A DNA stretch of 64,000 bases from NCBI RefSeq assembly GCF_021083645.1, contig NZ_JAJNRQ010000003.1, positions 248,001 through 312,000 of the forward strand, in the 5' to 3' direction. Of the stretch, positions 1 to 8,630 are shown piece after piece. A program made the translations under genes and the position numbers. Below the pieces are notes generated by a model that was given only the letters and a program-made list of their open reading frames with translations, ran no database searches and was not told where the DNA came from. Source of the DNA: Schaalia sp. lx-260 (GTDB lineage Bacteria; Actinomycetota; Actinomycetes; Actinomycetales; Actinomycetaceae). The first letter of the stretch is position 1; the number at the start of each line of letters is the position of its first letter.

Positions 1-2229
1 TACGGTTGTTAAAACAGGTCGTAATTCCGCCCACCATTGAGTAACAGGACGACGATTCTTCATATCGAGGTCATCAGACATGCGTTCTACCGGTCGCACA
101 TCCATACCGCCTTCTACTTGCCCGACATACACGTGACGCGCGCGACCCGAAGCTATCTGGTCAGCTATTTCCTCTATGCCGCAATCAACAAGGCGTGTGG
201 CAAGTAGGCGGTCAAAAGCGCTGGGCGCTCCGCCTTGTTGTAAATGTCCTAGTGCCGCATGACGCACATCGTAGATGCCTTGACCTTCGGCTTCAAAAGC
301 AGTTGCCAAGAATTCTGAATCATAGTGCGGATCATTGGCTTCATTGACTACAACTAAGAAAAGACGCCGTCCTTCTTGGAAAGATTCACGAAGTTTACGT
401 GCGTCTTTATCAATATCTGCCAATGCCACGGGCTGTTCATTAAGGTAAGCGTATTCAGCTCCCGTGGCGATACCAGACATCAGTGTAAGGTAGCCGCAGC
501 GCCGTCCCATCAGTCGAGCAACGAAACAGCGTTTAGAAGCGGCAGCCGATTCTTTAATACGGTCCAGTGCCCATATAGCATTATTGAGTGCGGTGTCGGC
601 GCCAATCGACAGTTCTGACCCGGGCAAGTTATTGTCTATCGTTGCCGGTATCAAAACGATTGGTAAACAAAAAGCAGGGTAACGATCTCTTTCTGCGTTC
701 ATCGCATGGACAGCAAGGTAGGCGTTGAGCCCGCCGATCACCATGAGCGCATCAATTTCATGTTTTTCAATTGCCCGTCCAAGTGCATAGAACTGTTCTA
801 CTGAGGGCACGGGACGGCGAGTGCCCAGTTCTGCGCCTCCTTGGAAAGCCCAGCCTTCAACATCTCCCCATGACAATTCACGCACTTGGCCATCAGCTAA
901 ACCAGCCCAAGAACCTTCAACGCCAAGCATGGTCCATCCGCGCGCAATACCCAGACGAACCGCAACACGGGCGGCCGTATTCATCCCTGGGGCTAGACCG
1001 CCAGCGTGCAGGATTGCAATTCGACGAGGATGATCCTGAGGTGGGGATATGAGTTGCGGAGGTGAAGAAAGAATTTCGTTAATTCGCACCATTGTTTTGA
1101 AAGAAGATCCACGGGCAGCTTGAGCGCCTGAGAAATCTCCTGCAGCAACTAAATCTTTCACTCCGCGCGTATCGGTTACTGCTTTCATCAGGGGTAGACG
1201 GGTAATTCGGTTGCGTCGCACCCCTAGAATACGTGCCTGTGTATGCGTGTCGTTATCTAAGATTTCTTGGACCGCTGCATACCCCAGCAAGGTTGACATC
1301 CAACGGTCATATGCTGAAGGTGAGCCGCCGCGCTGTACGTGCCCCAAAATCGTGATACGCGCGTCTTCGCCTGTTCGTTCTTTTAATGCGTGCGCAATAT
1401 GGGCCGTTGTCAGAGCATTTCCTTCACGGTCTGTGGCACCTTCTGCAACCAGAACAATAGATTCACGACGACCTGCTTCGCGTCCTAAACGTAGTTTGGT
1501 TGCCATGTCGTCTTCCCAGCCGGGTCCTGCTGGATTTTCAGGAGTAAAAACATAGTCAGCCCCGCCAGCGACAGCTGCCATCAAAGGTAGGTAACCGCAG
1601 TGTCGTCCCATCACCTCAACAATAAATGTGCGCTGATGCGAAGCCGCGGTAGAGGAAATCTGGTCAATGGCATCAAGAATTCGATGTAATGCGGTATCTG
1701 CGCCGATCGTCATATCGGTACCCACCATGTCGTTGTCGATAGAACCGACAAGTCCAACGACATGCAAAATAGGGTGCGCATCTGCGATCTCTTGACTGAT
1801 GTGTCCTTCCTCAACGAGTTCACTCACATGCTGTGACCATTCTTCACGGAATTCGTTGGTGCCTGAAAGGGAACCATCCCCTCCGATGACAACTAGGCGA
1901 TCAATCCCGTGTTCTAACAGGTGCAAAGCCGCAGCGTGGCGGCCCCAGTATTCACGAAATTCTGGGCAACGCGCTGTTCCGATAACAGTCCCCCCTTGGG
2001 AGAGAATCCCTGAGGCATCTGACCATCCCATGCGTTTAATGGAGTCACCACCGTTGACAGCACCTGACCATCCTTCAAGGATCGCGTACGGTTGAACGCC
2101 TCGGGCAAGTGCGGTTCGCACAACGGCACGTACCGCAGCATTCATTCCTTGAGCGTCACCGCCTGAGGTAAGGACACCTATGCGAGGTGTCATACCTTGC
2201 TGTTCGTCGCAATCAGTAGTGTGTTCCAT
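1..2229 (-). CDS. 6-phosphofructokinase, eukaryotic-like tandem form (3' end cut by window edge)
   Basis: Phosphorylates fructose 6-phosphate to the 1,6-bisphosphate, the committed step of glycolysis, in the cytoplasm. The open frame runs 743 codons from ATG at 2229 to the window edge without a stop. It holds two fused PFK domains. The N-half has the nucleotide motif GGDGS and catalytic SIDND followed by GTDMTIGADTAL; the glycine before SIDND, where PPi enzymes carry lysine, points to ATP use. The C-half keeps the fold (PATIDNN, GADTALNNA, MGRRCGYLTLM) but GGDGS reads GGLNA and the catalytic Asp is Asn. This split resembles animal and fungal PFK, where the C-half is regulatory. A GGAA Shine-Dalgarno lies about 8 nt upstream of the start. 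Tandem architecture is seen directly; allosteric behaviour is inference. Confidence 0.93.
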   Translation of the reverse strand, partial: MEHTTDCDEQQGMTPRIGVLTSGGDAQGMNAAVRAVVRTALARGVQPYAILEGWSGAVNGGDSIKRMGWSDASGILSQGGTVIGTARCPEFREYWGRHAAALHLLEHGIDRLVVIGGDGSLSGTNEFREEWSQHVSELVEEGHISQEIADAHPILHVVGLVGSIDNDMVGTDMTIGADTALHRILDAIDQISSTAASHQRTFIVEVMGRHCGYLPLMAAVAGGADYVFTPENPAGPGWEDDMATKLRLGREAGRRESIVLVAEGATDREGNALTTAHIAHALKERTGEDARITILGHVQRGGSPSAYDRWMSTLLGYAAVQEILDNDTHTQARILGVRRNRITRLPLMKAVTDTRGVKDLVAAGDFSGAQAARGSSFKTMVRINEILSSPPQLISPPQDHPRRIAILHAGGLAPGMNTAARVAVRLGIARGWTMLGVEGSWAGLADGQVRELSWGDVEGWAFQGGAELGTRRPVPSVEQFYALGRAIEKHEIDALMVIGGLNAYLAVHAMNAERDRYPAFCLPIVLIPATIDNNLPGSELSIGADTALNNAIWALDRIKESAAASKRCFVARLMGRRCGYLTLMSGIATGAEYAYLNEQPVALADIDKDARKLRESFQEGRRLFLVVVNEANDPHYDSEFLATAFEAEGQGIYDVRHAALGHLQQGGAPSAFDRLLATRLVDCGIEEIADQIASGRARHVYVGQVEGGMDVRPVERMSDDLDMKNRRPVTQWWAELRPVLTTV

Positions 2230-2334: not shown

Positions 2335-2384
2335 CTTGCGTGAAAGTAAATAGCAGACAGTTATACAGATTACTCTATAAATAT

Positions 2385-2422
2385 GGCTCGCTGACTGCAG
2401 GATTTCACGCAGTCAGCGAGCC
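2385..2422 (-). terminator. Terminator hairpin downstream of the DAACS transporter
   Basis: A perfect 14-bp stem, GGCTCGCTGACTGC (2385-2398) with GCAGTCAGCGAGCC (2409-2422), closes a 10-nt loop. Read on the minus strand the hairpin follows the transporter stop by about 70 nt and is followed by ATATTTATAG, an AT-rich but not uridine-only tail. It lies between two minus-strand genes and probably separates their transcription. One arm and the loop are duplicated (see the repeat at 2394-2483). Confidence 0.7.
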
Positions 2423-2483
2423 AATTCTTTTCAAGAATACTGCAGGATTTCACGCAGTCAGCGAGCCAATTCTTTTCAAGAAT
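2394..2483. repeat. Exact 45-bp tandem duplication covering half a terminator
   Basis: Positions 2394-2438 and 2439-2483 are identical 45-bp units placed head to tail. Each unit contains the loop and one arm (GCAGTCAGCGAGCC) of the terminator at 2385-2422 plus a small palindrome, ATTCTT-TTC-AAGAAT. The result has one plus-strand left arm and two competing right arms. The absence of any mismatch suggests a recent duplication. Confidence 0.92.
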
Positions 2484-2491
2484 TCAGGGGT

Positions 2492-3808
2492 TTATACCTG
2501 AGAGGTGAGCGCGCTTTGGGCACGTTCTTCTGGGGTGACGACTCCTTCTACTGACACTTTATCCAGGTAAGCCATTCCATCAAATGCAAGTTCACGCGCA
2601 TTTTCTGGGTCGGCTTCGCTGCCAAGGTGTCCTCCGGCGAGCTTGTCAACAACCAGTGAAATCGCAGCATCACCTGTGACATTGGTTGCCGTACCGAAAG
2701 AGTCGAGGGCAATGTAGGTAGCAATCATCAATGCAACAGCGGATTCATCGAAGCCTAGCATTGAGGCAAGCAAGCCTGTGGAGGCCATGATTGCTCCGCC
2801 AGGCACGCCGGGGGCGGCAACCATCGTAATGCCGAGCATGAAAACAAAACCTACCCATTGAGCTGCTGTGATTGTCATTCCGTGGGTGTAGACAATTGCG
2901 AAAGCGAAAGCAAAAATCTTTGAGGTGGATCCGGCCAGGTGAATGGTGGCGCACAGAGGGATCGTGAAGGATGCTACTGGCTGTGAGACACCTAATTTAC
3001 GTGCTTGGCGCAGTGTTACTGGAATTGTTGCTGCAGATGATGATGTTCCCAAAGCGGTGAAGTATGCCGGGAGCATAGTAAGCAGTGATGTGAAAGGATT
3101 CTTCCGTGCGATGGCTCCGGCAACAAAGTACTGCGTCAAAAGGATGACGAGTTCAAGAATAAGAACGATGACAACCACGCTGAGCATGTTGCGCATAATG
3201 CCCCATGCTTCACCTGTGTAGGTGAAGTTTAAGAAGATGCCGAAAATATGCAATGGCAACAGGGGGACAATTACTTTTTCAATGAGGCGCGTGATGATGG
3301 CTCGTAATTCGATCACTCCTTTGCGTAGGACGCCTCTGGGAACGAATGAAAGACCGATGCCGATGATGAATGATAGGAGTAACGCTGTCATAACATCCAT
3401 GACTGGCGGCATCTGGACAACAAAGTACGATGCGAGAGCACTACCTGGTTCTTTCGCGTCAGCAAGTGAAGATCCAAGGACGTGTGGGAATATGGTTGCA
3501 CACGCAAGGTAGGTAAGAAATCCTGCAAATAGGGTGGATCCGTAGGCGATTGCCGCTGTAATGCCTAGCCATTTACCTGCGCCTTTACCAAGATCTGCGA
3601 TAGCTGGGGTAACAAGCCCAATGATGATGAGCGGAATTGAGAAGCCAAGGAATTGACTGAAAATCGCAGAGAATGTCGAGAAGAAACGACCGAGTGTTTC
3701 AGGAATGATGTGCTGATCGCCAATGCGGAGTGAGCCAAGGACAAGAGCCAGAACAATTGCGACAAGCACCCATACGAGGATGCCACTCTTTTCCATAAAC
3801 TTACGCAT
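2492..3808 (-). CDS. Dicarboxylate/amino acid:cation symporter (DAACS family)
   Basis: Inner-membrane secondary transporter that probably imports a dicarboxylate or amino acid with Na+ or H+. The protein of 438 residues has hydrophobic segments throughout, the serine-rich hairpin motif SSSAATIPVTL and the following PVASFTIPLCATIHLAGS segment typical of the glutamate transporter fold. The usual NMDGT motif is replaced by HLAGS, so the substrate cannot be read from it. I chose ATG at 3808 because AAGGAA lies about 9 nt upstream; the frame stays open to 3889, but that extension is not conserved-looking. It appears monocistronic, with the terminator at 2385-2422. Family is secure, substrate unknown. 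Confidence 0.88.
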   Translation of the reverse strand: MRKFMEKSGILVWVLVAIVLALVLGSLRIGDQHIIPETLGRFFSTFSAIFSQFLGFSIPLIIIGLVTPAIADLGKGAGKWLGITAAIAYGSTLFAGFLTYLACATIFPHVLGSSLADAKEPGSALASYFVVQMPPVMDVMTALLLSFIIGIGLSFVPRGVLRKGVIELRAIITRLIEKVIVPLLPLHIFGIFLNFTYTGEAWGIMRNMLSVVVIVLILELVILLTQYFVAGAIARKNPFTSLLTMLPAYFTALGTSSSAATIPVTLRQARKLGVSQPVASFTIPLCATIHLAGSTSKIFAFAFAIVYTHGMTITAAQWVGFVFMLGITMVAAPGVPGGAIMASTGLLASMLGFDESAVALMIATYIALDSFGTATNVTGDAAISLVVDKLAGGHLGSEADPENARELAFDGMAYLDKVSVEGVVTPEERAQSALTSQV

Positions 3809-3978
3809 ACCTATTTTCCTTGTGTTGTAGAGGAAGGGTCGCTTAAAGACTGCCTTTTGATGAAGTTTTACCGGAGAACGTATCAGCATATGGACTTTCT
3901 GGGGTAGCAGATTGGCCCTGCTTACCCTTTACCGTTCTTGATGAGTTGTGAAGCACATGTATAGGTAGGCCTATAGGT

Positions 3979-4025: not shown

Positions 4026-5249
4026 TCAGTGTTTCTTGCTGTATTCCTGCATATTTTCATCGAGGACGTGGAGGAATTCTTCGGTTGTCAGCCAGGGAGA
4101 TTCTGCGCTGATGAGGCGTGCGAGGTCTTTCGTCATCTGCCCTTTTTCTACAGTACGAATGATTACTTTTTCCATTGCTTGCGCAAAACCGATGACTTCA
4201 GGTGTTCCGTCAAGTTTTCCTCGGTGTTCCAGTGCGCGAGTCCATGCAAAAATTGATGCAATCGGATTGGTAGAGGTGGGTTCGCCTTTTTGATGACGAC
4301 GATAGTGTCGGGTAACAGTGCCATGTGCGGCTTCGGCTTCCATCGTACGACCGTCAGGGCTCATCAGCACTGATGTCATTAATCCGAGGGACCCAAAGCC
4401 TTGTGCTACCGTGTCGGATTGAACGTCGCCGTCGTAGTTCTTACAGGCCCACACGTAACCGCCGGGCCACCGTAAACTACATGCCACCATGTCGTCAATA
4501 AGTCGATGCTCGTATGTAAGTCCTGCGGCATCGAATTGTTCTTTGTATTCTTCTTCAAATACACGGGCAAAAGTATCCTTAAAAGCTCCATCATAGGCTT
4601 TAAGGATCGTGTTTTTTGTTGAGAGATACACCGGATAGCCTCGTTGTAATCCGTAGGCAAAAGAGGCGCGCGCAAAATCAGCGATGGATTCGTTGAAGTT
4701 GTACATTCCCATCACTACACCGCCGTCTTTGGGGACGCGGATAATTTCGTGTTCTATGGGTTCTGAACCGTCCTCAGGTGTGAAGGTCAGGGTCAATGTG
4801 CCGGCTCCGGGAAGGGTCAGATCTGTTGCTTTGTATTGGTCGCCAAAGGCGTGACGTCCAATGACGATGGGTTTTGTCCAGTGCGGGACAAGGCGTGGAA
4901 TGTTAGAGATGATGATTGGTTCACGGAAAATAACGCCGCCAAGGATATTGCGGATAGTTCCGTTAGGGCTTTTCCACATTTTTTTCAAGCCGAATTCTTC
5001 TACACGCGCTTCATCAGGAGTAATGGTTGCGCATTTGACACCTACGCCGTGTTCTTTAATGGCGTATGCGGAGTCGATTGTCACTTGGTCGTCGGTGGCG
5101 TCCCTGTTTTGTACTGACAGATCATAGTAGCGAAGGTCAATATCAAGGTAGGGGTAGATCAAGCGTTCTTTAATAAATTGCCACATAATTCGAGTCATTT
5201 CATCGCCATCGAGTTCAACGACTGGCCCTGCAACTTTGATCTTTGACAT
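4026..5249 (-). CDS. icd: Isocitrate dehydrogenase, NADP-dependent, eukaryotic-type dimeric
   Basis: Oxidatively decarboxylates isocitrate to 2-oxoglutarate, making NADPH in the TCA cycle. The 407-residue product belongs to the homodimeric class that includes mitochondrial and cytosolic eukaryotic enzymes, not the E. coli class or the monomeric actinobacterial class. Isocitrate-binding KSPNGTIRN lies at 93-101, and [13 protein letters not shown] places an arginine at 132, the position equivalent to human IDH1 R132. The C-terminal half has HGTVTRHY and the NADP-site segment [15 protein letters not shown] at 5249 is preceded by GGAG at good spacing; upstream in-frame sequence to 5348 looks non-coding. 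It is the only TCA gene in its immediate neighbourhood. Confidence 0.95.
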
Positions 5250-5388
5250 GAGCGCTCCTTTATAAAATATGTCACGATTGACAATCTCAATCCCCAGATT
5301 ACTCGATATCAAGATATATGTCAGGCCTATGTATGCCTTATTGGGCAATTTACAAACAAAAAGCTAGAAAAACCCCTTTCATACGTGA

Positions 5389-5688: not shown

Positions 5689-5830
5689 CTTTCGGACCCT
5701 AGCATGGACGAGCCGTGCTTCACACTATTTTCTGCACGTGTGGGCCACAAGCACAGATACCATTAAGGAAGTGACCAATTCCGGCCACCACCGTTGCACA
5801 CATATGTCGCACGTATACGAAGGAGCATCC

Positions 5831-7345
5831 GTGATTTCCCGTTTCCTCGTTATCGCCCCGGAAGGTATACACACCACCCGAGCCGCCGACGACCTCGCTC
5901 AATGCCTCTCTGCTGCAGCGCCGCTCAGCCGCATGAGCGCCTTTGCAGGCACAGACCTTACCAGTGCAGCCGCTTCGCCTGAACGCGCACTTCCCCTCGC
6001 CGTAGAAGCTGTACGCGCATGCGACAGTGAATATGTACTTATCGAGGGTGTAGCCGACGTTGCACTACACCTCTTTGACACATTCGACTGGAATCTTAAT
6101 TTAGCTGCAGCAACACAGGCACATGTCATCTTGGCTTTAGACACCGAAGGGTATTCTGCCGACCTTGTTGCCGCAGAAATTCGCACAGCACGTATGCGCG
6201 CACAAAAACATCATGCGCAACTCAGCGCCGTCCTCTTACCTGCAGCAATGGCTCAAGCAGTTTCAGTGGACGATGTACACATACTCTCTCTGCCGCTCAC
6301 CGATGAGTCACGAGCTACTTTGACAGGCCTCACCCCTCCATCAGCAGTTACACCACTGACCTTCCAAGCAAATCTTGTTGATCGTGCTCGTTCAGACCGT
6401 AAACGCATTGTCCTACCCGAACCAGAAGATGATCGTGTCCTCAAAGCAGCAGCAGAAGTACTTCAACGCGGCATCGCTGACATCATCCTTGTTGGCGACG
6501 AAGTAGCTATCCGTCAGCGCAGTGAACAGCTCGGTGTTGATGTTTCTGCGGCTAGCGTTGTCGCTGTGGACGATCCTGTGCTTCACGAAAAGTATGCCGC
6601 TGAATTTGCGCGTCTGCGTCAAAAGAAAGGCATTACCATTGAGCAGGCTCGCGAGAAGGTACGTGACGTATCCTACTTTGGCACGATGATGGTACATATG
6701 GGAGATGCCGATGGCATGGTTTCAGGTGCAGCCCATACGACTGCTCACACCATTGTTCCTTCATTCCAAATTATCAAGACAGCACCGGGTGTATCAATTG
6801 TCTCCTCAATTTTCCTCATGCTCATGGCTGATCGCGTGTGGGCTTTCGGTGACTGCGCAGTAAATCCCAACCCCACGCCTGAACAACTTGCAGATATCGC
6901 AATTTCCTCTGCATATACAGCTCGCCAATTCGGTATCGAACCAAAAGTTGCAATGCTGTCCTATTCCACAGGAACCTCCGGTTCTGGCGTAGATGTGGAA
7001 GCTGTTGCTGAAGCAACCCGCATTGCTCAAGAAAAGGCCCCCGAACTCGCAATCGAAGGCCCTATCCAATTCGACGCATCTGTTGATGAAGCCGTGGCTG
7101 CCACAAAACTGCCGCATTCCACAGTTGCAGGCCACGCTACCGTATTCGTATTCCCCTCTCTTAACGCAGGAAATATTGGGTACAAAGCTGTTCAACGTTC
7201 ATCTGGCGCAGTTGCTGTTGGCCCAATCTTGCAAGGATTAAATAAACCAGTGAATGACTTGTCACGCGGCGCCCTTGTGGAAGATATTGTGAATACTGTT
7301 GCTTTGACAGCTGTCCAAGCGCAAAACTCAAGCAACGCCTCATAA
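5831..7345 (+). CDS. pta: Phosphate acetyltransferase
   Basis: Interconverts acetyl-CoA and acetyl phosphate; with AckA 91 nt downstream it forms the acetate overflow and ATP-yielding pathway. The protein is 504 residues. The N-terminal 180 or so residues look like a degenerate P-loop (AAA_26-type) domain without a clear Walker A. The catalytic PTA_PTB domain follows, with NLVDRARSDRKRIVLPEPED, SYFGTMMVHMGDADGMVSGA, VNPNPTPEQLADIA and LSYSTGTSGSG. The DRTGG domain of long (about 700 residue) Pta enzymes is missing. I place the start at GTG 5831 because GAAGGAG ends 5 nt upstream; the frame stays open to 5738. Confidence 0.93.
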   Translation: MISRFLVIAPEGIHTTRAADDLAQCLSAAAPLSRMSAFAGTDLTSAAASPERALPLAVEAVRACDSEYVLIEGVADVALHLFDTFDWNLNLAAATQAHVILALDTEGYSADLVAAEIRTARMRAQKHHAQLSAVLLPAAMAQAVSVDDVHILSLPLTDESRATLTGLTPPSAVTPLTFQANLVDRARSDRKRIVLPEPEDDRVLKAAAEVLQRGIADIILVGDEVAIRQRSEQLGVDVSAASVVAVDDPVLHEKYAAEFARLRQKKGITIEQAREKVRDVSYFGTMMVHMGDADGMVSGAAHTTAHTIVPSFQIIKTAPGVSIVSSIFLMLMADRVWAFGDCAVNPNPTPEQLADIAISSAYTARQFGIEPKVAMLSYSTGTSGSGVDVEAVAEATRIAQEKAPELAIEGPIQFDASVDEAVAATKLPHSTVAGHATVFVFPSLNAGNIGYKAVQRSSGAVAVGPILQGLNKPVNDLSRGALVEDIVNTVALTAVQAQNSSNAS

Positions 7346-7436: not shown

Positions 7437-8630
7437 GTGAAACAAACTGTCCTAGTCATAAACTCAGGTTCGTCCTCCATTAAGTACCAACTTGTTGATC
7501 CACAAACTGGCCAAGCATATGCAAAAGGCCTCGTTGAGCGTATTGGCGAATCAGAAGGCCATATCGTCCACAAATACGATAGCAATACCACTGAAGTGAA
7601 TGCCCCTATCGCAGACCACGAAGTAGGGATGCGCGAAGTTCTTCGTCTTTTTGACGAGGTCGGCCCACGTTTATCCGAAGCACATATCGTCGCAGTTGGA
7701 CACCGCGTTGTACAAGGTGGCCGTTACTTTGATGGACCCACTTTAATTACTGACGATGTGCGCACCCTCATTCACGACCTATGCGCGCTTGCTCCCCTGC
7801 ATAATCCTGCGCACCTTAAAGGCATTGATGTGGCACGCGACCTCATGCCAGATGTTCCTCATGTCGCTGTTTTTGACACAGCTTTCTTCCAGAGTCTCCC
7901 CGAAGAAACTGCGACTTACGCCCTTGACCGTGATGTAGCGGAAAAATACTCTATTCGCCGTTATGGAGCTCATGGCACCAGCCATCAGTACGTTTCTCAG
8001 AGCGTGTCACACCTACTTGAACGCGATGATTTACGTCAGATTGTCCTTCACCTCGGCAATGGCGCTTCTGTGTCAGCAATCAAAAATGGGCACGCTATCG
8101 ACACATCTATGGGTCTGACACCATTAGAAGGCCTAGTTATGGGTACCCGTACCGGTGATATTGACCCTGCTGTTGTTTTCCATTTGCAACGTCAAACCGG
8201 CTGGTCAGCAGAAGAACTCGATACGCTTTTCAACAAGAAATCCGGTTTGAAAGGCTTAACCGGCGAAAATGATATGCGTGCTGTCCGCGCCATGACTACC
8301 AGCGACGATGAACAAACACGTCGCCGCGCACGCGTGGCATTAGATGTGTATATCACCCGTATCGTGAAATACATTGGTTCCTATACCGCTGAACTTGGTG
8401 GCCTTGATGTCCTCACATTCACCGCAGGAATCGGAGAAAACGACACCAATTTACGCACTGAAATTATTGAACGCCTCGCACCTTTTGGTGTTTTCCTTGA
8501 TGAGGCAGCAAATAATGCCCGCCACGATACAGCCGTCACTATTTCCACACCGGAATCTTCTGTGCGTGTCATGGTTGTCCCAACAAATGAGGAATATGCG
8601 ATTGCGCAGCAGGCACTCAGCCTAGTCTGA
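7437..8630 (+). CDS. ackA: Acetate kinase
   Basis: Transfers the phosphoryl group of acetyl phosphate to ADP, giving acetate and ATP. The 397-residue product has normal family length and starts with the ASKHA phosphate-loop motif VINSGSSSIKYQL. Further motifs are GHRVVQGG, VFDTAFFQ, YGAHGTSHQYVSQ, LHLGNGASVSA, DTSMGLTPLEGLVMGTRTGD and FTAGIGEND. The start is GTG at 7437 with GGAAAGG at 7420-7426. It follows pta in the same direction and ends just before a strong terminator, so pta-ackA is a likely two-gene operon. Confidence 0.97.
   Translation: MKQTVLVINSGSSSIKYQLVDPQTGQAYAKGLVERIGESEGHIVHKYDSNTTEVNAPIADHEVGMREVLRLFDEVGPRLSEAHIVAVGHRVVQGGRYFDGPTLITDDVRTLIHDLCALAPLHNPAHLKGIDVARDLMPDVPHVAVFDTAFFQSLPEETATYALDRDVAEKYSIRRYGAHGTSHQYVSQSVSHLLERDDLRQIVLHLGNGASVSAIKNGHAIDTSMGLTPLEGLVMGTRTGDIDPAVVFHLQRQTGWSAEELDTLFNKKSGLKGLTGENDMRAVRAMTTSDDEQTRRRARVALDVYITRIVKYIGSYTAELGGLDVLTFTAGIGENDTNLRTEIIERLAPFGVFLDEAANNARHDTAVTISTPESSVRVMVVPTNEEYAIAQQALSLV

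Follow-up and report, generated by a model that had tools for sequence, protein, structure and literature searches.

The gene at the start of the window (the whole 64,000-nucleotide stretch of Schaalia sp. lx-260 DNA analysed here) encodes two phosphofructokinase (PFK) domains fused in one chain, and its product truly belongs to the "eukaryotic" PFK-1 family, of which it is one of many bacterial members. Very probably, the enzyme is an ATP-dependent tandem PFK-1 derived from the same fusion as the human enzyme, working as a tetramer with its C-terminal half (C-half) as a hexose-phosphate sensor, and encoded by a gene that has moved from phylum to phylum.

The reading frame overruns the window edge by 69 bases, stop included (genome position C6:247932), and this missing 3' end, whose recovery the sequence-only reading had proposed, was supplied by the source genome (1.93 Mb in 12 contigs). 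The protein has 765 residues when translated from ATG 2229, the likely start, or 786 from GTG 2292, the alternative; residue numbers of the window protein take GTG 2292 as 1, and 21 is subtracted for the ATG count. With TIGR02478, the NCBIfam model of eukaryotic PFK-1, the protein scored 910.6 bits (E 6.8e-274, cut-off 708.4), and the enzyme is evidently within the NCBI models already. In phmmer, alignments with the human, rabbit and yeast enzymes covered most of the protein, and the match to human PFKP (44.4% identity) was colinear across both halves and the C-terminus at E 2e-199. The TIGR02478 E-value and this colinear match exclude a chance resemblance, and membership in the family is solid. 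The fusion of two domains, the motifs GGDGS and SIDND in the N-terminal half (N-half) and GGLNA and TIDNN in the C-half, and the likeness to animal PFK had all been read from the letters and were borne out. An AlphaFold model of the 765-residue form, built from 41 hand-picked rows (mean pLDDT 91.5, pTM 0.92), overlaid human PFKP over 727 residues with Z 49.0 and an rmsd of 1.4 Å, while single-domain PFKs superposed on one half only. The protein shares two colinear PFK domains and the predicted fold with the TIGR02478 members.

Table 1. The tandem PFK gene, its parts and its upstream flank, in window positions
Feature	Position	Strand	Evidence
Tandem phosphofructokinase gene (eukaryotic-type PFK-1)	1..2229	-	Open frame without stops, two PFK domains
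N-half, predicted catalytic PFK domain	1042..2187	-	PF00365 343.9 bits; boundary is the tree cut
C-half, predicted non-catalytic PFK domain	1..1041	-	PF00365 276 bits; last 22 residues beyond the window
GGDGS, N-half Mg-ATP site (D103/G104 equivalents, ATP-type)	1870..1884	-	Residue alignment
SIDND, N-half catalytic base loop (D127 and D129 equivalents)	1729..1743	-	Residue alignment
GGL, ruined C-half Mg-ATP site	727..735	-	Residue alignment
TIDNN, C-half; D127 equivalent retained, D129 equivalent replaced by Asn	628..642	-	Residue table
MGR, C-half; R171 equivalent retained (Gly in 5/5 eukaryotic chains)	502..510	-	Residue table
HLQQ, C-half sugar-phosphate pocket; R252 equivalent replaced by Gln, as in 5/5 eukaryotic chains	235..246	-	
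Terminator-like 16-pair hairpin in the gap from the upstream transporter-like gene to the PFK gene	2384..2423	-	

To the aligned positions we assigned the roles of E. coli PfkA residues as we take them to be, including D127 as the catalytic base. The N-half retains all E. coli active-site residues, with T125 present as Ser, and is of the ATP type at G104 and G124. In the C-half, D103, G104, G124, D129 and R252 (E. coli numbers) are replaced by Leu, Asn, Ala, Asn and Gln, respectively, and the equivalents of R72, T125, D127 (D553), R162, M169, R171 (R597), E222, R243 and H249 are retained. Considering these substitutions, Mg-ATP binding as in PfkA should fail in the C-half; GGD occupied its Mg-ATP position in 0/169 bacterial rows. 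Judged by residues, and as in the rest of the family, the N-half is predicted to be a catalytically complete ATP/fructose 6-phosphate (F6P) site, and the C-half to be without the Mg-ATP side with its sugar-phosphate pocket retained. A division of roles like that of animal and fungal PFKs had been proposed beforehand, and the residues point the same way. The accompanying claim that the second site has lost its catalytic aspartate held in part: the D103 and D129 equivalents are lost, but the D127 equivalent (D553) is retained. Two other identities were ruled out, namely a PPi-dependent PFK, whose signature we take to be Asp in place of G104 and Lys in place of G124, by Gly at both positions in the N-half, and a single-domain PfkA, by the two PFK domains and a tree placement apart from the singles.

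For the F' effector site we used a residue list in human PFKM numbers, presumably as in HAMAP/UniProt. R471, N531, R566, E629, R655 and Q663 were invariant in 135/135 bacterial rows (the 169 alignment rows include repeat fetches, and key counts were redone on 135 rows below 95% identity), and the window C-half keeps the F' residues of the family as R493, N554, R588, E651, R677, H683 and Q685. It departs from the eukaryotic chains at two F'-site positions, D553 and R597. The D127 equivalent of the C-half is Asp in 89/135 bacterial rows and Ser in 5/5 eukaryotic chains, while the R171 equivalent is Arg in 111/135 and Gly in 5/5, respectively. Of the 11 mammalian ADP-site residues listed in the portion of PMC3845836 used here, the window protein agrees with human at 8, differing at F538 (Leu), N381 (Met) and F308 (Tyr), and S. 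cerevisiae alpha agrees with human at 3. The C-terminal RPxxQWWxxLRP segment is retained. At the citrate positions K557, D591 and K617, given in an excerpt of PMC2990764, the window protein has Lys, Glu and Gln.

We then compared the halves as separate rows in a careful tree (LG+C20) of 86 rows; 37 tandems, giving 74 halves, were hand-picked from a set of 60, and 12 single-domain PFKs from 20. The alignment excluded copies of the window gene (L001, L002, L044) and tandem rows no longer than 650 residues, the set of 60 tandems excluded non-eukaryotic rows no longer than 680, and a hand-made list removed 18 PFK rows, among which were tandem pieces and PPi-type enzymes; SGL_L181.2, which is a shortened tandem protein and not a single-domain PFK, was excluded from the careful trees. 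All N-halves (32 bacterial, 5 eukaryotic) formed one clade with support of 100/99 and all C-halves another with 100/100, with the singles branching apart. This halves phylogeny had been named beforehand as the check, and the two halves did not come together within the singles; N branched with eukaryotic N and C with C. A scan of shared states, in which one of the 20 "singles" was the mislabelled tandem fragment SGL_L181.2, found 12 in the N-half and 6 in the C-half that are common to bacteria and eukaryotes and rare in singles or in the other half, and 0 columns uniting bacterial N and C against eukaryotes. For 90/135 bacterial tandem PFKs, identity to human PFKP is higher than that of every one of four fungal subunits (best bacterial 51.7%, best fungal 46.4%; the value for the window protein lies below the best fungal one). 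Based on these sequence comparisons, we conclude that the window PFK and human PFK-1 descend from the same duplication and fusion, the event behind the TIGR02478 members.

As to where the fusion arose, the two-domain enzyme with its allosteric wiring may have come from bacteria, perhaps from a Chloroflexota-like lineage, from which animals and fungi would have obtained the gene by transfer; eukaryotes would later have tuned the C-half pocket to fructose 2,6-bisphosphate by Asp to Ser and Arg to Gly changes. Nearly as probable is an origin in an early eukaryote, with a single passage of the fused gene to bacteria, where it spread, and our reading of the enzyme is compatible with such a history. 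A bacterial tandem clade beside the eukaryotes was compatible with the halves set (AU p 0.48) and with a concatenated N|C set (p 0.535, likelihood 2.6 log units higher; four hand-picked singles, each duplicated, 200 bootstraps), and FastTree drew the bacterial tandem PFKs as sister to the eukaryotes. However, the free careful searches nested eukaryotes in bacteria, on weakly supported branches, among 200 bootstrap trees 0% had the bacterial N-halves as a clade and 1% the bacterial C-halves, the concatenated set gave the bacterial clade in 0% of 200 bootstraps, and the Ser and Gly of eukaryotic C-halves are derived. Since this clade was absent from the bootstraps and yet had a slightly higher constrained likelihood, no direction was drawn from the concatenated tree, and with a eukaryotic sample of five chains from opisthokonts alone, the event cannot be oriented. 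PFK duplication and the regulatory half are presented as eukaryotic developments in the part of PMC12203962 drawn on here, and likewise in excerpts of PMC2990764 and PMC7702303. Considering that bacterial relatives carry the same fusion, this textbook view of a eukaryote-made double enzyme needs a fresh test. Most bacterial second sites hold the residues of single-domain PFKs, and the bacterial tandem PFKs are living material for asking which ligand the second site held before fructose 2,6-bisphosphate and by which route the gene travelled.

Direct or recent acquisition of the gene by the actinobacterium from an animal or fungus would fit the 44% identity to human PFKP and the strong colinearity with human PFK, but we consider it very unlikely. 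The opisthokont halves were monophyletic to the exclusion of bacteria (98/95 and 100/99 in the halves tree), and therefore nothing suggests bacterial uptake from an animal or fungus. In a full-length tree of 57 of 174 rows, hand-picked and rooted on the eukaryotes by choice, the window gene was nested among bacterial tandem PFKs; its partner there was the gene of Schaalia cardiffensis (76% identity), both belonging to a 12-row clade of Actinomycetaceae (100/98), lying within Actinomycetota and Accumulibacter/Competibacter (27 rows, 100/100) and adjoining Chloroflexota. When the Actinomycetaceae were forced beside the eukaryotes, dlnL was 37 with AU p 0.03 in one test, and 45 with AU p 0.058, which is no formal rejection, in the other. 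Such a transfer would also need the eukaryotic C-half Ser and Gly to revert to Asp and Arg. The sequence-only reading had offered fusion or transfer as alternatives; a direct animal or fungal transfer is disfavoured by the nesting and the opisthokont monophyly, while some transfer between phyla seems to have occurred. Once the gene had passed from one bacterial phylum to another, its inheritance inside Actinomycetaceae would have been mostly vertical. A Propioniciclava row (L093) fell among Actinomycetaceae in both halves of the halves tree, where the full-length tree differs, and so this descent may not be purely vertical. The other alternative, that actinobacteria joined two single-domain PFKs on their own and lost the second site convergently, has practically no credence left, provided that the model is not grossly off: nothing was found in its favour, holding the bacterial N- and C-halves together apart from eukaryotes was rejected at dlnL 181 and AU p 3e-5, and 18 half-specific shared states stand against 0 for it.

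The tandem PFK is a family-wide gene and not an isolated case. TIGR02478 matched above its cut-off in 126/151 Actinomycetaceae genomes, including 12/12 of the genus, and 25/151 were below it, some with fragments. Beyond the family the tandem form is scarce in actinobacteria, as had been supposed, with 26/297 genomes in the order sample, 6/296 in the class and 15/296 in the phylum, where these counts and that of the family each include the window's own genome. Matches above the cut-off were found in 19/201 Chloroflexota, 2/149 Acidobacteriota, 1/247 Bacteroidota and 1/299 Pseudomonadota genomes; the seed genome of each sample is counted, and in the last two nothing else matched. Within these samples, it is therefore chiefly a gene of Actinomycetota and Chloroflexota with sporadic carriers elsewhere. 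The best 80 of 585 relatives, a list that carries no frequencies and is drawn from a set in which the tandem form is not established throughout, came from Actinomycetaceae, Propionibacteriaceae, other Actinomycetota, many Chloroflexota and Accumulibacter/Competibacter/Contendobacter, with a few records from Acidobacteriota, Bacteroidota, Deltaproteobacteria, Spirochaetia and one cyanobacterium. Among these 80, all records outside Actinomycetota and Chloroflexota are MAGs, so binning errors are possible there. Within those two phyla a contamination artefact is unlikely, because the gene is carried by a complete chromosome (CP064953, Actinomycetaceae) and by isolates such as Arcanobacterium haemolyticum and Oscillochloris ZM17-4.

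The 63 plasmid matches were all below 60% identity, and the 15 examined were single PFK genes, each roughly 1 kb long and hit by the N-half and the C-half of the tandem query alike. A split tandem PFK at L151 (G028, a one-contig genome) was rejected as a natural two-gene form, since the break and frame change lie inside the N-half and the gene looks damaged or mis-sequenced. A literature search judged on titles and the starts of abstracts found no published description of bacterial tandem PFKs.

In the mechanism that we propose, the N-half would phosphorylate F6P with ATP (6-phosphofructokinase-1), presumably with a tetramer as the working form. The C-half pocket may sense a hexose phosphate, of which F6P and fructose 1,6-bisphosphate (FBP) are the likeliest, and this sensing could move the N-half from a more active state to a less active one or back; adenine nucleotides would perhaps act at an N2-like site. 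F6P or FBP is favoured as the C-half ligand because a fructose-2,6-bisphosphate synthase was not found, the PFKFB model PF01591 (one Pfam model, with no true positive control) matching in 0/18 genomes. Judged from the conserved sites, effector control of the window PFK is plausible; we infer regulation by F6P or FBP, and the effector responses are predictions. In the portion of PMC12203962 used here, FBP occupies the F sites of a human PFK structure, and the adenine sites N1 and N2 are said to be without counterparts in bacterial PFKs. The ADP-site residues of the window PFK suggest that N2 is older than that portion of the review holds. A second PFK of the genome, on another contig, is PPi-type (PRK06555, 737.7 bits), and therefore the tandem enzyme may not be the sole glycolytic PFK.

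Next after the PFK gene on the same strand is pgi (glucose-6-phosphate isomerase; PRK00179, 790.8 bits). A pgi match adjoins the tandem gene, downstream or divergent, in 10/20 loci of the family (L006-L025, with some 1.5 kb of flank), and several longer loci also have pgi beside it. In 11/95 loci examined (L084, L089, L091, L099, L106, L110, L120, L189, L193, L195 and L108), a single-domain PFK adjoins the tandem PFK in the same orientation. The paired enzyme has GGDDT (PPi-type) in 10 of the 11, and those 10 loci are Chloroflexota going by sample or title, as we take L120 (Promineifilum) to be; in L108, a cyanobacterial MAG, it has GGDGS/PKTIDND. L085 also has an adjoining single-domain PFK, which the size filter left out of this count. 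The arrangement looks like a pairing of an ATP-PFK with a PPi-PFK gene, by which glycolysis could be switched from irreversible to reversible and back.

In the stretch that separates the PFK gene from its transporter-like neighbour, a 45-nt unit occurs in two perfect tandem copies (2394-2483), the first of which is overlapped by the hairpin, and Rfam gave 0 matches over the window. The 465-aa product of the ORF at 2492-3889 (-) looks like a membrane protein and had no match in NCBIfam at 1e-20; by eye it resembles a dicarboxylate/glutamate symporter. At 4026-5348 (-) lies an NADP isocitrate dehydrogenase gene (PRK08299, 746 bits), whose product also passes the eukaryotic TIGR00127 (667.7 bits, cut-off 397) and which we presume to be of the ordinary type common to many bacteria. 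The phosphate acetyltransferase encoded at 5738-7345 (+) has best match stretches starting at residue 200 at the earliest, with the first 200 residues unexplained, and ackA follows at 7437.

Compared with known systems, the window protein has the PFK superfamily in common with the PPi-PFK (PRK06555) of the same genome, which differs in its other contig, single domain and GGDDT and PKTIDND signatures. With single-domain PfkA of E. coli and Bacillus it shares the domain fold and an ATP-type N-half active site, while it consists of two fused domains whose halves branch away from the singles. Yeast PFK alpha and beta (3o8o, 3opy) have the same fusion and fold, and the window protein differs in its ADP-site residues, which are nearer to human than to yeast, and in being without the long yeast-type N-terminal extension described in an excerpt of PMC12203962. 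From human PFK-1, whose family is given as InterPro entry IPR009161 in that excerpt, it differs in the C-half Asp (D127 equivalent) and Arg (R171 equivalent) in place of the eukaryotic Ser and Gly, in Gln at citrate position K617, and in the 0/18 genomes matching PFKFB. With human PFKP, PFKL and PFKM it has in common the tandem arrangement, a predicted catalytic N-half, a putatively ATP-dead C-half with a sugar-phosphate pocket, 8/11 ADP-site residues and the C-terminal QWWxxLRP.
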